Assembly (NCBI GenBank): GCA_020831635.1
Contig: JAFIGC010000039.1
Span: 1 to 40,930, forward strand
Direction: 5' to 3'
DNA from: Verrucomicrobiota bacterium
GTDB lineage: Bacteria > Verrucomicrobiota > Kiritimatiellia > SS1-B-03-39 > UBA6053
DNA: 40,930 nt
Position numbers and translations under genes: made by a program. Below are positions 2,758 to 36,253 of this stretch, one piece after another (position 1 is the stretch's first letter; each line of letters starts with the position of its first letter). The notes below the pieces were generated by a model that did not search any database, had not been told where the DNA came from, and saw only the letters and a list, made by a program, of their open reading frames with translations.

Positions 2758-3600
2758 TCACGGACGTTTTGGAAATTTTGAGAAATCGGGCGGACGTTTC
2801 TCCACGAAGGCGTTGCGGCCTTCCTGGCCCTCTTCGCTCATGTAGAACAGCATGGTGGCGTTTCCGGCGAGTTCCTGGAGCCCGGCCTGTCCGTCGCAGT
2901 CCGCGTTGAGGGCGGCTTTGAGGCAACGAATGGCAATCGGGCTGTTGGCCAGCATTTCCCTGCACCACTTTACGGTTTCGGCTTCGAGATCGGCCAGGGG
3001 CACCACGGTGTTGACCAGACCCATGTCCAAGGCCTGTCGGGCGTCGTATTGGCGGCACAAAAACCAAATTTCGCGGGCCTTTTTCTGGCCGACGATGCGA
3101 GCCATGTAGCTGGCGCCCCAGCCGCCGTCAAATGAGCCGACCTTGGGGCCGGTTTGGCCGAATCGGGCGTTGTCGGCGGCGATGGTGAGGTCGCACAGCA
3201 TGTGCAGGACGTGTCCGCCGCCGATGGCGTAGCCCGCGACCATGGCCACCACGGGCTTGGGGCAGACCCGGATGTCCCGCTGAAAATCGAGCACGTTGAG
3301 CCGGTGAACCCCCTCGGCGTCCTTGTAGCCGCTGTCGCCCCTGATTTTCTGGTCGCCACCGGAACAGAAGGCCAAATCCCCGGCTCCGGTGAGAATGATC
3401 ACCCCGATCTTCAAGTCATCGCGGGCATCGTTGAGGGCAACGCGCATTTCGCTGACGGTCTGGGGACGGAAGGCATTGCGAACCTGGGGGCGGTTGATGG
3501 TGATTTTGGCGATGCCTTCGGCTTTGTGATAGAGAATGTCTTCGAAAGTGCCGGCTTCTTGCCAGTCGGGAAGTGAGGCGGAAAGTGAGGGGTTGTCCAT
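2758..3600 (-). CDS. menB: 1,4-dihydroxy-2-naphthoyl-CoA synthase MenB
   Basis: MenB is the crotonase-fold enzyme that closes the naphthoquinone ring by converting O-succinylbenzoyl-CoA to 1,4-dihydroxy-2-naphthoyl-CoA in menaquinone synthesis. The 280-residue protein carries MenB hallmarks: [14 protein letters not shown] (79-92), an oxyanion-hole region [16 protein letters not shown] (123-138), and SFDGGWG (156-162) with the Asp typical of the active site. The open frame runs far upstream through menH, but the true start is the ATG at 3600: it begins the conserved region, lies 2 bp after the menH stop and has an AGGAA element about 8 bp upstream. Pairing with menH supports the pathway assignment. 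Confidence 0.95.
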
Positions 3601-3602
3601 GA

Positions 3603-4379
3603 TTATTGTTCCTGTTGATGTTGTTCCAGATGAAGTTGTTGGAGAAATTCTTGCACGGCGCTTTGCCAGGCTTCCGGGTCTTCGAGGTGAATGTTGTGGC
3701 CACAGCCGGGGATCAGGCGCACTTGGGCACCGCCAATGTGTTGCTTCACCCAGCGGGCTTGTTCCACATACCTTGAATCCCGTTCCCCCGCAAGCCAGAG
3801 AATGCGCGAAGTACAGCGCATCAGCCAAGGCCGCAAATCGGGCTGCGTTCCGGCGGAAAACGTTTCCAGGGCCGTGGCCAGATGCGCGGCATTGCCGTGA
3901 CGAAGGGGCGGGGCGGGCAGGCTTTGCCACATGGGCTGGGCATACCACCATGTACAAAAGGCCTCCAAACCCTCCTTCCTGAGTTTTTCCGCCCGTTGGG
4001 CGTCCACTTGCCGTCGTTCGCTTCGTTCTTCCGCGTCCGCATGGCCGAGAAACGCCGATTCCAGGATCAAGTGACGAAAATCGTTCGGATGGCGGGATGC
4101 GGACATCATCAAAAGCCGCCCACCCATGGAATATCCCGCCGAAAAATCACATCCCGCCGCAAGTTTGGCGATACCGGACAGGGTATCGGACAAGGACATG
4201 GGGTCGGTTTTTCCGTGACCGGGCAAATCCGGGCAAAGGATCTCATAGTCGTTCAGCAATGGGTCGAGGAAATTTTCCCCTTCCGCGCCATCGCCCAAAA
4301 AGCCATGCAACCAAAGGCCCTTGGGCTTTCCGGAGGTGCCAATACGGTGGAGATGAAAAGGAGCGGAGGAAGGATTCAC
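3603..4379 (-). CDS. menH: MenH-like alpha/beta hydrolase (SHCHC synthase)
   Basis: This is an alpha/beta-hydrolase of 258 residues, the size of MenH, which eliminates pyruvate from SEPHCHC to give SHCHC in menaquinone synthesis. Visible elements are an N-terminal HGFLGDG loop (25-31), a nucleophile elbow GYSMGGR (Ser84), an acidic residue in GERD (about 201) and the catalytic His in [11 protein letters not shown] (His228). The family as a whole is diverse, but the 2-bp spacing to menB and the LHGFLG / GYSMGGR pattern favour MenH over a generic esterase. Its ATG overlaps the stop codon of the upstream frame (ATGA), which implies translational coupling. Confidence 0.88.
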
Positions 4380-13811: not shown

Positions 13812-13962
13812 TTTTTAAAGGCGAGGTCTGCCCTTTAGACGCATTTCAGTCTGGACTTGAGTTTGAGACAATGCTGGGTTGCTGACGTCCCGCCGCCCCT
13901 CCGCTTGCCCTGTCTTTTATACACAATTCTTGTGCATCGTGACTTACGGCCCTGACAGAAAT

Positions 13963-13992
13963 CCTAATCCTAATCCTAATCCTAATCCTAAT
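13963..13992. repeat. Five tandem CCTAAT hexamers
   Basis: Five perfect copies of CCTAAT lie in a row, followed by CGG. A related CGTAAT/CCTAAT tract with an inverted partner occurs at 26375-26442, so the motif is a recurring intergenic one in this genome. Confidence 0.95.
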
Positions 13993-14026
13993 CGGAACCT
14001 CCGATCCAATCCACCGAAATTTTTTA

Positions 14027-14056
14027 AACAGGAGGACGCAGAGGGCGCAGAGGGGA
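14027..14056. repeat. Dispersed motif, copy 1 (AACAGGAGGACGCAGAGG type)
   Basis: A 30-bp purine-rich segment (ACAGGAGGACGC, then AGAGGGCGCAGAGGGGAA) recurs at 14764-14793 with one substitution. Both copies follow a T-rich run. It belongs to the repeat-rich island and does not code. Confidence 0.75.
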
Positions 14057-14114
14057 ATGGCAACTTAAGGGTCGATTGAAAGTACAGGCGCGGTCAAAAC
14101 ACTTAAACCACAGA

Positions 14115-14341
14115 CCCCTGCGGGCTTGCCCCGCATGGTGAATCAGATCTGAGGCTAGACCGGGTAAGCTTGTCCATCTCCAGGCCCCTGCCGCCTTGCG
14201 CGGCAGGTGAATAAGTCCCTTGCTTCTTGGCTCCGTGGGAGACTTCTTCACCTGCCGCGCAAGGCGGCAGGGGCCGAGGAACAAGTGGGATTCTTGTCTG
14301 GCCACAGGTCTTTCGCTCCGGCGGGACAAGCCCGCCGGGGG
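14115..14341. repeat. Variable-stem hairpin repeats, first island (four copies)
   Basis: Copies lie at 14115-14142, 14185-14211, 14247-14273 (reverse orientation) and 14316-14341 (reverse). Each has the order CCCC, stem, CTTG, complementary stem, and three end in GGTGAA. The stems differ (TGCGGG/CCCGCA; TGCCGC/GCGGCA; CGGCGGG/CCCGCCG) but remain paired. The first copy has a tail CTGAGGCTAGA at 14149-14159, shared with copies near 34.9 kb. Copies 2 and 3 form a larger inverted repeat 35 bp apart. Confidence 0.85.
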
Positions 14342-14382
14342 CATTTTTCGGCCCAAGGCAACCACAAAAATCGTTTCAAAAT

Positions 14383-14470
14383 ACCCTTAATTTTCCTTTG
14401 CTGCCTTTGCTTGCTACTGTTCCAATCCTTTATGTTTTTTTGAACAGATGGTCGCGAAGGAAGCGAAGAA
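14383..14470 (-). repeat. Dispersed repeat related to 37854-37925 and 39289-39445
   Basis: The segments reading TTTGCTGCCTTTGCTTG, CTGTTCCAATCC and TTGAACAG followed by GCGCGAAGG-like sequence match, in opposite orientation, the repeats upstream of the ADP-ribosylglycohydrolase and GH43-like genes. The two halves are themselves imperfect inverted repeats of each other. Confidence 0.65.
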
Positions 14471-14678
14471 TTTCAGTGGGTTTCCCGCCATGCAAAGCCT
14501 CTTTGGGACTGGAAATGCTCGAAAATTCAGCCGGGGTCCATATGAACTCAAGTCCAGACCGATTTGTGTGTAAAGGCAGACCTCGTGTCGTGGGTGAACG
14601 GCACCCCCGGGTTCTTATCCGGAGATTCATTTGGGTTTTCGGTGAAACAACAAAGATCGGAATCCAGGAGTAAGGAGC

Positions 14679-33438: not shown

Positions 33439-34767
33439 ATGACGGTTCCTTTCCCCTGCCTCCGCCCCCCGCCGGAGCGGCGCTGTTTCCGCAGTGCTGT
33501 CGTTGACGCCTTGATTGACGAAACCGTGGCCCGAATTGACGATCCCGAACTGGCGTGGCTGTTCTCGAATTGTTTCCCCAACACCCTGGACACCACCGTG
33601 GACTTCGGCAGGGACAGGGAGGGGCGCCCGGACACCTTTATCATCACTGGCGACATCGACGCGATGTGGCTGCGGGACTCCACCAACCAGGTGTGGCCCT
33701 ACTTGCCGCTGATGGAGCGGGACCCGGCCCTGTGTGACATGGTCGAGGGACTGGTACGGCGGCAGGCCGCCTGCATTCTGCTCGATCCCTACGCCAACGC
33801 CTTTTACAAAGACGGCACCCGGGTCAGCAAATGGGAATCGGACATCACCGAAATGCGCCCCGGGGTGCACGAGCGCAAATACGAACTCGACAGCCTTTGC
33901 GCCTTTCTCCGCCTGTCCGCCGGACTGTATCGGCATTGTCCCGATACCGGGGTGTTTGACGACAAATGGCGCGAGGCGCTCCAACTCGTGGTCGACACGA
34001 TCCGACACGAGCAGGCGGGCCACGTCGAGGGGCCACCGGCTTACACCTTTCAACGCCGCGACAAAAATCCAACGGAAACGCTTCAGGATGGCGTGGGGTT
34101 TCCCCTGCGCCGCTGTGGCATGAGCCGCAGTCCCTTTCGTCCCTCCGACGACGCCACCATCTTCGGGTATTTGGTTCCCGCCAACGCCATGGCCGTGGTC
34201 ACCCTCCGTGCCGTGGCCGATATTCCCGCCGCCGCCTTCCTTGCCGGGGACATGAATGCCTTGGCCGACGAGATCGATCGCGCCATCCACGCCCACGGCA
34301 TCGTGGCGCATCCGGAATATGGACGCGTTTTCGCGTATGAGGTGGACGGGCGGGGATCCGTGCTCTTCATGGACGACGCCAATGTGCCCAGCCTGCTGAG
34401 TCTTCCCTATTTGGGATATGTGGACGCCGGGGACCCGGTGTACCAAAACACCCGCCGGTTGGTGCTGGGGGAGGGGAATCCATTCTTTGCCCGGGGAACC
34501 GCCGCCCGTGGAATCGGCGGACCCCACGTCGGTCCCGGATGGATCTGGCCCATGTCCCTGATCCTGCAAGGGCTGACCTCACGGGATCTCCGGGAAATCG
34601 ACGAGATTCTCCAGACCCTGAAACGAACCCACGCGGGAACCGGCTTCATGCACGAAAGTTTTTGGAAAGACGACCCCACCCGCTTCACCCGCCCCTGGTT
34701 CGCCTGGGTCAACACCCTCTTCGGCGAGTTGGTGCTGGAGTGGGTGCAAGGACCGGATGGAGATTGA
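33439..34767 (+). CDS. GH125 exo-alpha-1,6-mannosidase
   Basis: A 442-residue enzyme with strong GH125 signatures: FSNCFPNTLDTTVDF (42-56), GDIDAMWLRDSTNQVWPYL (71-89), RCGMSRSPFRPSDDAT (225-240), FMDDANVPSLLSLPYLGY and GFMHESFWKDDPTRFTRPWF near the C-terminus. Family knowledge places the catalytic acid in the RPSDDA region and the base at the Glu of MHESF. GH125 enzymes remove non-reducing-end alpha-1,6-linked mannose. No signal peptide, so it probably works in the cytoplasm on imported oligosaccharides. The start at 33439, 8 bp after the esterase gene, is chosen because upstream codons in the same frame are the shadow of that gene. This gene links the cluster to mannose-containing glycans and to ManA. 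Confidence 0.93.
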   Translation: MTVPFPCLRPPPERRCFRSAVVDALIDETVARIDDPELAWLFSNCFPNTLDTTVDFGRDREGRPDTFIITGDIDAMWLRDSTNQVWPYLPLMERDPALCDMVEGLVRRQAACILLDPYANAFYKDGTRVSKWESDITEMRPGVHERKYELDSLCAFLRLSAGLYRHCPDTGVFDDKWREALQLVVDTIRHEQAGHVEGPPAYTFQRRDKNPTETLQDGVGFPLRRCGMSRSPFRPSDDATIFGYLVPANAMAVVTLRAVADIPAAAFLAGDMNALADEIDRAIHAHGIVAHPEYGRVFAYEVDGRGSVLFMDDANVPSLLSLPYLGYVDAGDPVYQNTRRLVLGEGNPFFARGTAARGIGGPHVGPGWIWPMSLILQGLTSRDLREIDEILQTLKRTHAGTGFMHESFWKDDPTRFTRPWFAWVNTLFGELVLEWVQGPDGD

Positions 34768-34862
34768 ATGAGAAGCGTACCCAGTGAACATGGTTGTGAA
34801 ACAGTCGGTTGTTTCCGAAACCCATGCGGCGATTTCGATAAGGAGTTGCATGTATCGGGAGC

Positions 34863-35097
34863 CCCGCGAGCTTGTCTCGCGGGTGAAAGGCACCTGAGGC
34901 TAGAATGGAATCGCCTTGGGTAGCAAGAGCCCCGCGCCCTTGCGGCGCGGGTGAACGGCACTCGCGGCTTCCTTGGGTTGTGGGGAAGAAGCTACGAGTG
35001 CCGTTCACCCGCGAGGCAAGCTCGCGGGGCTCTTTGTTTATGCTCCGCAGGTTTAGCCTTAGGTCCCGTTCACCCGTGCCGCAAGGGCACGGGGGTC
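34863..35097. repeat. Variable-stem hairpin repeats, second island (four copies)
   Basis: Four copies at about 34863-34886, 34930-34954, 35004-35030 (reverse) and 35069-35096 (reverse) share CCCC, CTTG and GGTGAA, with stems GCGAG/CTCGC, GCGCC/GGCGC, GCGAG/CTCGC and GTGCC/GGCAC. The tail CTGAGGCTAGA follows the first copy and a CTAAGGCTAAA variant follows the last. The middle two are joined by a further 14-bp inverted repeat, GTGAACGGCACTCG (34951-34964 and 34995-35008). The island fills the 334-bp gap between the convergent GH125 and regulator genes; nothing else is visible there. Confidence 0.88.
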
Positions 35098-35101
35098 TTC
35101 T

Positions 35102-36253
35102 TTATTCCGCCACCTGTCCCCCCTGCCTGTATTTTCTTGGCGAGGTTCCTGTTTCCTTTTTGAAGGCCAAGTTGAAGGAATGGATCTCCGCGAAGCCGCA
35201 GGTTTCCGCAACCCGGCTGACAGGCCAGTCGGTGGACATGAGCATCTCCCGGGCGTATTCCAGGCGACAGCGCAGAATCTCCTGGTACGGGGAGCGTCCG
35301 ATTTCCTTTTGAAAGCGTTTTTCCAATAGACGCCTGGAGATGCCGGCTTGCTTTGCCAGATCTTCGATGTTTCCCACCAATCCCTTGTTCTCATGGATAT
35401 GGGCAAGCATCTTTGAGAGGACCCTGTCCTCCACGGCGGAAATTTCCGTGGAATGCCTTGCCACAACCCCCAAAGGCGGGATTTTGATCCGACGGGGACT
35501 TTGCGAACGACCTTCCAAAAGCAATTCTCCGACCCGACGACCGATTTCAGGACTGTTGAGTTCCACGCTGCTCAGACGCGGTCGGGAAAGCGAACAAATC
35601 ACGTGGATATTGTCATTGCCCATCAGGACGAAATCCTCGGGGGCGCGCAGTCCGAGACGGGTCGCAACCCCCAGAAGATCAAAGGCCATGGTGTCCGAAT
35701 CACAATAGATGGAGAAAGGAGGGCGAAAGCGAGTGCGAATGGTTTGCACCACCCCTTCGATGGCCTCCAGATTGTGTTTGCCGGGATACCAGTCCCAGGT
35801 GAGGTCGAGGACATCTTGGTTGGCGTGGCGGGTCACTTCCTCCTGAAATCCCCGGCCCCGTTCCCTACTGTAAAAATGATCTTGGTGTGTACCGAGAAAA
35901 ACATGTTGCTTGAGTCCCAACCCCAGCATATGACGCGCGGCGGCGCGTCCCACTTCCACATCATCGGACACCACGGCGTCAAAAAGCGTTTCCTCCCGTT
36001 TGTTGCTCACGCAAATCACATGACCCGGGAAGGCAAGGGCGGCGGGTTGATCGCAGGGATAAATCGCGTGGGTAATCACCGCATCCGCCTCGCTGGTCCA
36101 AACTTTTGGTGTGGCCCAGGACAGGTTTCCCACGTCCCACAGCAACTCCCATTCCGGGTGGTATTGCAGGACTTCCCCCAGACCCTCAATGATGCGACGA
36201 AAGTGGTGACCGGAGAGACTGAGTGCCAGCGCCAACTGTTTATTCTTTTTCAT
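35102..36253 (-). CDS. XylR-type transcriptional regulator (sugar-binding domain plus AraC HTH)
   Basis: A 383-residue regulator. Residues 1-270 form a periplasmic-binding-protein-like (LacI-type) sensor without a LacI HTH: LALALSLSGHHFRRIIEG at the start, then VVSDDVEVGRAAARHMLGLG, FSIYCDSDTMAFDLL and FVLMGNDNIHVICSLSRPRL. The C-terminal 100 residues are an AraC-family double HTH (VGNIEDLAKQAGISRRLLEK and WPVSRVAETCGFAEIHSFNL). The architecture equals E. coli XylR. The start is the ATG at 36253 with an AGGGGGA ribosome-binding site; the open frame upstream is noise. It is convergent with GH125 and divergent from the PEP-CTERM gene, and probably activates the polysaccharide genes when bound to a sugar product. 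Confidence 0.92.
   Translation of the reverse strand: MKKNKQLALALSLSGHHFRRIIEGLGEVLQYHPEWELLWDVGNLSWATPKVWTSEADAVITHAIYPCDQPAALAFPGHVICVSNKREETLFDAVVSDDVEVGRAAARHMLGLGLKQHVFLGTHQDHFYSRERGRGFQEEVTRHANQDVLDLTWDWYPGKHNLEAIEGVVQTIRTRFRPPFSIYCDSDTMAFDLLGVATRLGLRAPEDFVLMGNDNIHVICSLSRPRLSSVELNSPEIGRRVGELLLEGRSQSPRRIKIPPLGVVARHSTEISAVEDRVLSKMLAHIHENKGLVGNIEDLAKQAGISRRLLEKRFQKEIGRSPYQEILRCRLEYAREMLMSTDWPVSRVAETCGFAEIHSFNLAFKKETGTSPRKYRQGGQVAE

Follow-up and report, generated by a model that had tools for sequence, protein, structure and literature searches.

CTTG-loop hairpins in a Kiritimatiellia genome as probable REP-like recognition sites of a fused two-domain Y1 transposase

The window, by which we mean the whole 40,930-bp stretch of contig JAFIGC010000039.1 (Verrucomicrobiota bacterium, Kiritimatiellia), contains eight short hairpins in two islands of four, each island arranged as two forward copies followed by two reverse copies (>> <<; Table 1). 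The second island (unit 2) lies between convergent genes, a GH125 mannosidase gene on the forward strand (ending at 34767) and an AraC-type regulator gene on the reverse strand (ending at 35102). Each hairpin is built of an 8-bp stem, a 5-nt CTTGY loop and a TGAA-type tail, with the exception of the outer left hairpin of island 1, which has a 9-bp stem with a C.T mismatch. The sequence (A)GACC or (A)GAGC stands directly 5' of the stems and GGTGAA directly 3', the latter replaced by GGAGCGAA in the outer right hairpin of island 1. Outer copies continue into ACCTRAGGCTARA or a near variant, and the inner copies of unit 2 into ACTCGNGGCTTC or a near variant. A preliminary description of this DNA had reported eight copies in two islands, sharing CCCC and CTTG and mostly GGTGAA around a set of variable stems; all eight were found at the coordinates given, with CCCC and CTTG constant in 8/8 copies, GGTGAA in 7/8, and stems as it listed them. 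The distal CTRAGGCTARA tail it described is also present, but is a feature of the outer copies, while inner copies finish with CNCGNGGCTTC or a sequence related to it. An Rfam covariance-model search of the window gave no match at the gathering threshold.

Table 1. Hairpins and larger elements of the window
Feature	Position	Strand	Sequence or remark
Island-1 carrier element	14062..14393	+	intact copies on C19, C214 and C297 with inverted ends GAATGGYACTAACTTAAGGGTC...GACCCTTAAGTTAGTGYCATTC; ends eroded in the window
Outer REP hairpin, island 1 left	14111..14158	+	TGCGGG-CTTGC-CCCGCA, C.T mismatch then CC/GG, tail TGAATCAGATCTGAGGCTAG
Inner REP hairpin, island 1 left	14181..14227	+	CCTGCCGC-CTTGC-GCGGCAGG
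Inner REP hairpin, island 1 right	14231..14277	-	CCTGCCGC-CTTGC-GCGGCAGG
Outer REP hairpin, island 1 right	14298..14344	-	CCGGCGGG-CTTGT-CCCGCCGG, tail AGCGAAAGACCTGTGGCCAG
Whole unit 2	34797..35100	+	copies on C275 and C283 start at the identical base, TGAAACAGTCGG
Outer REP hairpin, unit 2 left	34857..34903	+	CCCGCGAG-CTTGT-CTCGCGGG, tail CACCTGAGGCTAG
Inner REP hairpin, unit 2 left	34925..34971	+	CCCGCGCC-CTTGC-GGCGCGGG, tail ACTCGCGGCTTC
Inner REP hairpin, unit 2 right	34988..35034	-	CCCGCGAG-CTTGC-CTCGCGGG, tail ACTCGTAGCTTC
Outer REP hairpin, unit 2 right	35053..35099	-	CCCGTGCC-CTTGC-GGCACGGG, tail ACCTAAGGCTAAA

Across the genome, the motif pattern CCCC..CTTG..GGTGAA, which fixes these three blocks only and does not demand complementarity, had 38 matches versus 3 for a reversed control. 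Among distinct matches, a mean of 4.8 of the six inner pairs was matched, compared with 2.9 when 3' arms were swapped, and 0/20,000 arm-swap shuffles were as high. In an alignment of 24 distinct copies, 98.4% of stem cells were paired (76.1% when shuffled), 42 cells were changed on both sides (10.4 when shuffled), and two-sided changes occurred in 6/8 stem pairs; the covariation score of 0.639 compares with 0.186 for shuffled copies and 0.06-0.15 for slid structures, and 0/500 shuffles reached it. A chance origin of the hairpin pattern is excluded, and the covariation of stems between fixed flanks that had been proposed from the window copies extends beyond them. The accompanying claim that this is not simple sequence duplication needs qualification: covariation supports selection on the hairpin, but within an island some copies clearly share an origin by duplication, entire units occur repeatedly, and for the window hairpins duplication and covariation both hold. 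Likewise, the suggested RNA or cruciform structure stands insofar as a structure is selected, whereas the rarity of G-U pairs (6/192 cells) argues that selection most likely acts on a hairpin of single-stranded DNA and not on RNA.

The preliminary description had proposed searching the genome and its relatives with a covariance model. Such a search found 68 REP copies in the draft genome at E below 0.01, a count that is a lower bound since the assembly consists of 308 contigs with collapsed repeats; many contigs end in or near hairpin copies. The 235-bp island recurs on C275 (94%), C283 (87%) and C110 (81%), unit 2 recurs as a whole on C275 (89% over 302 bp) and C283 (86% over 305 bp), and the copies of the island-1 carrier on C19, C214 and C297 match at ~95%. 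In related species further stems appear while loop and tails are unchanged; G003, for example, has CCCGCGTG-CTTGT-CACGCGGG, its outer tail being CACCTGCGGCTAG and its inner tail CTCTTCGGCTTC. REP clusters with new covarying stems lie at G009:C217:74-188 and G003:C87:22954-23132. In the incomplete assemblies of G003 (12 REP copies) and G009 (15), the fused transposase gene described below was not found. An orthologous empty site for unit 2 was sought in three congeners, in which the flanks were too diverged, and no clean filled/empty pair was obtained for this unit.

The partner gene came to light on contig C20, where matches to Pfam Y1_Tnp and to the hairpin fall together. There, a Y1 ORF of 266 aa (3016-3816) is enclosed in the layout >> [ORF] << <, with an outer hairpin at 2856 and an inner one at 2924 on its left and, in reverse orientation, an inner hairpin at 3846 and outer hairpins at 3913 and 3980 on its right. 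The tails (outer GGCTAG, inner GCTTC) match window unit 2 side for side: the left part of the unit (34860-34974) corresponds to C20 2854-2968 and the right part (34980-35100) to C20 3822-3944, at ~78-79%, and nothing of the C20 gene lies between the two matching sides. A paralogue on C272, 55% identical to the C20 protein, is likewise flanked by hairpins, and these match the outer hairpins of island 1. A Y1 gene is thus found between >> << ends like those of unit 2, which itself carries no gene, and this places the hairpins among REP/BIME-like DNA elements and not in a new RNA class. Of the three functions floated in the preliminary description (RNA element, protein-binding site or non-autonomous mobile unit), the evidence most favours the third, and from sequence comparison the best explanation of 34797-35100 would be a derivative that lacks the gene, much like a BIME, REPIN or MITE.

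Alternatively, the hairpins may act as RNA, either as bidirectional terminators or as stabilisers of mRNA ends, with RNA folding as the source of the covariation. The convergent genes around unit 2 are consistent with such a role, as are the terminator-like sites within 34700-35200 (3 versus 0.7 in shuffles), and unit 2 could have a terminator role as a secondary use. As the principal explanation, however, RNA function is highly improbable: the conservation of foot, loop and tail reaches well beyond a hairpin and T run, only one side has a T-rich run, gene-less units match the ends of >> << units that surround a transposase gene, and the scarcity of G-U pairs also speaks against it.

The transposase is a tandem fusion of two IS200-like Y1 domains. 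Pfam PF01797 matches the C20-type protein in two partial stretches, and in a PDB sequence search residues 155-224 resembled the HUH part, and residues 88-121 the tyrosine-helix part, of IS200 TnpA. A scan of the genome contigs with the single protein found no relatives; an alignment-based scan found them, and the homologue alignment, first of 13 and then of 35 sequences, spans Kiritimatiellota, Lentisphaerota, Planctomycetota and Verrucomicrobiota. Within the phylum, the fused gene is present in 25/388 genomes. Domain 1 has a KG motif and a YxxxQ helix without HUH (YxxxQ in 35/35 sequences, HUH in 0/34 readable rows), while domain 2 has (P)DHxH in 35/35 and ends where a tyrosine helix would be expected. 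A domain-2 Tyr is kept by only four sequences, which carry Trp at the Gln position and form a single clade (100/100 support). An AlphaFold2 model of a Lentisphaerota homologue (pLDDT 87.7, pTM 0.86) consists of two successive Y1 folds, and its residues 144-257 resemble IS608/ISDra2 TnpA (Z 10, 2.2 A over 114 residues). For domain 1 predicted alone (pLDDT 77.8), the best 15 PDB entries were all IS200/IS605 TnpA (Z 8.7-10.0; next, unrelated, 6.7), and against a profile of single-domain IS200 TnpA it aligned VEAYIRDQ with VANYIKNQ (E 7e-7), which superposes the two tyrosine helices. This distribution of motifs suggests that one catalytic site appears to be shared between the two halves of the chain. 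A circular permutation in place of a fusion was ruled out, as each half is a complete beta-alpha-beta-beta-alpha-beta unit. The open-access literature searched yielded no description of a fused or tandem Y1 transposase, nor of a single-chain enzyme with a split site of this kind. In one homologue (L094; G055:C48:9525-10007), which is probably a pseudogene, an internal deletion joins the domain-1 tyrosine helix straight to the domain-2 HUH (VGTYL-HVHVAVRG).

Hairpins with the same loop accompany fused genes in other phyla. In the flanks of 19 homologue loci, CTTG led all 256 loop tetramers with 50 hairpins, the average tetramer having 0.8, and a background of almost double the length held 4 CTTG hairpins; since the flank hairpins were picked by complementarity, the evidence here is the loop count and not the pairing. 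At least one CTTG hairpin lies near the gene at 28/35 loci, the remaining 7 having none nearby, and the stems differ, giving 51 distinct stem-loops. Across phyla the hairpins follow the consensus GNCC-CCNNYGRS-CTTGY-complement-[AT]GNNNAAGNTY, and 28 different stems among them pair at 8/8 positions. At four loci of family relatives (L084, L085, L088 and L091, in G008, G010 and G007), the fused-gene flanks translate as long repetitive peptides (RESRLRGERNIQ..., SGASPKTAG...); such flanks are tandem-like palindromic repeat arrays that have other loops and adjoin the gene.

It could be argued that the fused protein is a degraded or regulatory, homodimer-forming relative and that the REPs are served by another Y1 protein, given that the genome has ~19 further Y1_Tnp matches and that neither domain alone has the full catalytic set. 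We find this hard to credit. Decay would be random, and therefore losses that are complementary and invariant count against a degraded protein: Gln is confined to domain 1, HUH to domain 2 and Tyr, save in the clade of four, to domain 1, across 35 divergent sequences from at least four phyla. Furthermore, the fused genes are the ones that the hairpins flank.

Island 1 differs in its setting, since it lies inside a carrier element with 22-bp inverted ends that interrupts another repeat of the window, leaving pieces at 13888-14061 and 14390-14576. More than 10 unsplit copies of the interrupted repeat without the carrier occur in the genome, and therefore an insertion or exchange took place at island 1, not necessarily by the Y1 enzyme; given the TIR carrier, the island-1 copies may have been spread by another transposase. 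The interrupted repeat (AACAGGAGGACGCAGAGGG...TTTGCTTGCTTCTGTT) is very abundant, interspersed and itself an inverted repeat. All hairpin copies might by extension be passengers of TIR (DDE-type) transposons or MITEs, mere cargo to whose dispersal the Y1 protein is irrelevant. In favour of this, an 11-bp direct repeat (CCGGCAGGCCC) borders the C297 copy, repeat-like flanks surround unit 2 as well, and the genome has 26 occurrences of the island-1 end sequence, many of them no more than 60 bp from the end of a contig, as expected for a collapsed IS. Nevertheless, such passive spread is an unlikely general explanation, because the hairpins of C20, C272 and unit 2 have no TIR ends, because hairpins also lie by Y1-fusion genes in other phyla, and because cargo status leaves both the covariation and the fixed loop unexplained.

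The hairpins are thus very probably REP-like recognition sites in single-stranded DNA, belonging to a REP-transposase (REPtron-like) system with a fused, composite-site enzyme. Each unit comprises two direct outer and inner hairpins on one side and an inverted pair on the other, and in its autonomous form (C20 and C272) it encloses the Y1 transposase gene. In the mechanism that we propose, when a strand is single, for example as lagging-strand template, the CTTG-loop hairpin could fold and be bound, and a tyrosine would then nick the strand beside it, yielding a 5'-phosphotyrosine and a 3'-OH for rejoining or copying. Domain 1 would provide the catalytic Tyr and the Gln metal ligand and domain 2 the HUH metal site, resulting in one composite (trans-type) active site per chain. 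The dimers of IS608 and ISDra2 have two active sites, and helix exchange between the two sites of the homodimer has been proposed for IS608. By our proposal, a single composite site would make IS608-type helix exchange impossible, which would leave nicking with rejoining, or primed copying, without excision of a circle. Compensated change in the stems alongside a constant loop, foot and tail would be explained by an enzyme that reads shape, loop and flanks and not most stem bases. Known Y1 enzymes cut single-stranded DNA beside a hairpin via Tyr, with HUH and a downstream Gln/Asn as metal ligands, and IS200 TnpA acts as a dimer, in contrast to the monomer seen in the solved structure of E. coli TnpA-REP (PMC6006769, PMC8266576).

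With the REP/BIME/REPIN-RAYT systems of E. coli and Pseudomonas REPtrons (PMC2817692, PMC3116915, PMC8266576), the elements share short imperfect palindromes, inverted pairs and intergenic dispersal, and as in REPtrons the multi-copy palindromes flank a single-copy Y1 transposase gene, here on C20 and C272. S. maltophilia REPs are perfect palindromes with an 8-bp stem, a 3-nt loop and loop-specific recognition (PMC8266576). In contrast to RAYT systems, the hairpins have a constant CTTGY loop and a TGAA/AGCGAA-type 3' tail and lack a GT[AG]G foot: the foot on the CTTG strand is GNCC, and the tail consensus on the other strand is also without GT[AG]G. The enzyme, a two-domain fusion, is closer by NCBIfam to IS200 TnpA (37-55 bits) than to RAYT (REP_Tyr_transpos, 17-20 bits against a cut-off of 80), which does not identify it as a class 2 TnpA-REP. 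The Y1 fold, DHxH, YxxxQ and single-stranded hairpin ends are shared with the IS200/IS605 TnpA of IS608 and ISDra2. However, that enzyme is a homodimer of ~150 aa with two active sites and with HUH and Tyr in the same single domain, whereas here one chain of two domains has a single set of catalytic residues, with HUH and YxxxQ on separate domains, and each side of an element bears a pair of hairpins, with copies that lack the gene also present. Class 3 TnpA-Y1 proteins (Quentin et al. 2018, PMC6006769) resemble ours in their presence in Planctomycetes, atypical gene-flanking hairpins and many copies; they have a median of 178 aa, a 155-aa core, NHVH, YV[VI][AENY]EQ and the foot CnGA, while the fused protein has ~260 aa, PDHxH, and YxxxQ in the first of two domains. 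Length and motifs rule out identity with this class (Table 1 of PMC6006769). GTAG- and CGTC-tagged palindromic repeats are likewise short stem-loop families found in the PVC group too, the CGTC repeats being reported without a dedicated transposase (PMC3733652); neither tag is present in the hairpins described here. These hairpins are probably a new, tag-less class of REP, of a general kind already known.

The system probably represents a separate REP-mobilising lineage, which would have arisen from IS200-type transposases by fusion and complementary catalytic loss to give a single-chain pseudo-dimer with one trans site; this enzyme would serve a CTTG-loop class of REPs of its own throughout the PVC bacteria. 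A stage on the way may survive in the clade of four, whose members have both tyrosines, a single HUH and a single Gln. If this is correct, a single-chain pseudo-dimer with one composite site would be a third solution beside homodimer and monomer, and REP biology would gain a new class of hairpin, from phyla that have received little study. It would also raise the questions of whether a trans site alone is enough to cleave and disperse REPs, and whether losing one site turns a transposon into a REP system.

Two further observations concern other repeats of this genome. The island-1 end sequence (GAATGGCACTAACTTAAGGGTC) lies within 60 bp of many contig ends, e.g. at C69:31-52, C153:32-53 and C254:13791-13812, and judging from these positions is presumably part of a high-copy insertion sequence collapsed in the assembly. 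Several REP copies stop precisely at the CTTG loop and give way there to other repeats (C217, C262, C77, C211, C91 and C101; L159, L161, L162 and L075-L077), with broken ends resembling ...AAGGGCAGGA|CAAG and TTGTC|CTGCCCACGG; the hairpin loop may be a target of other mobile elements.
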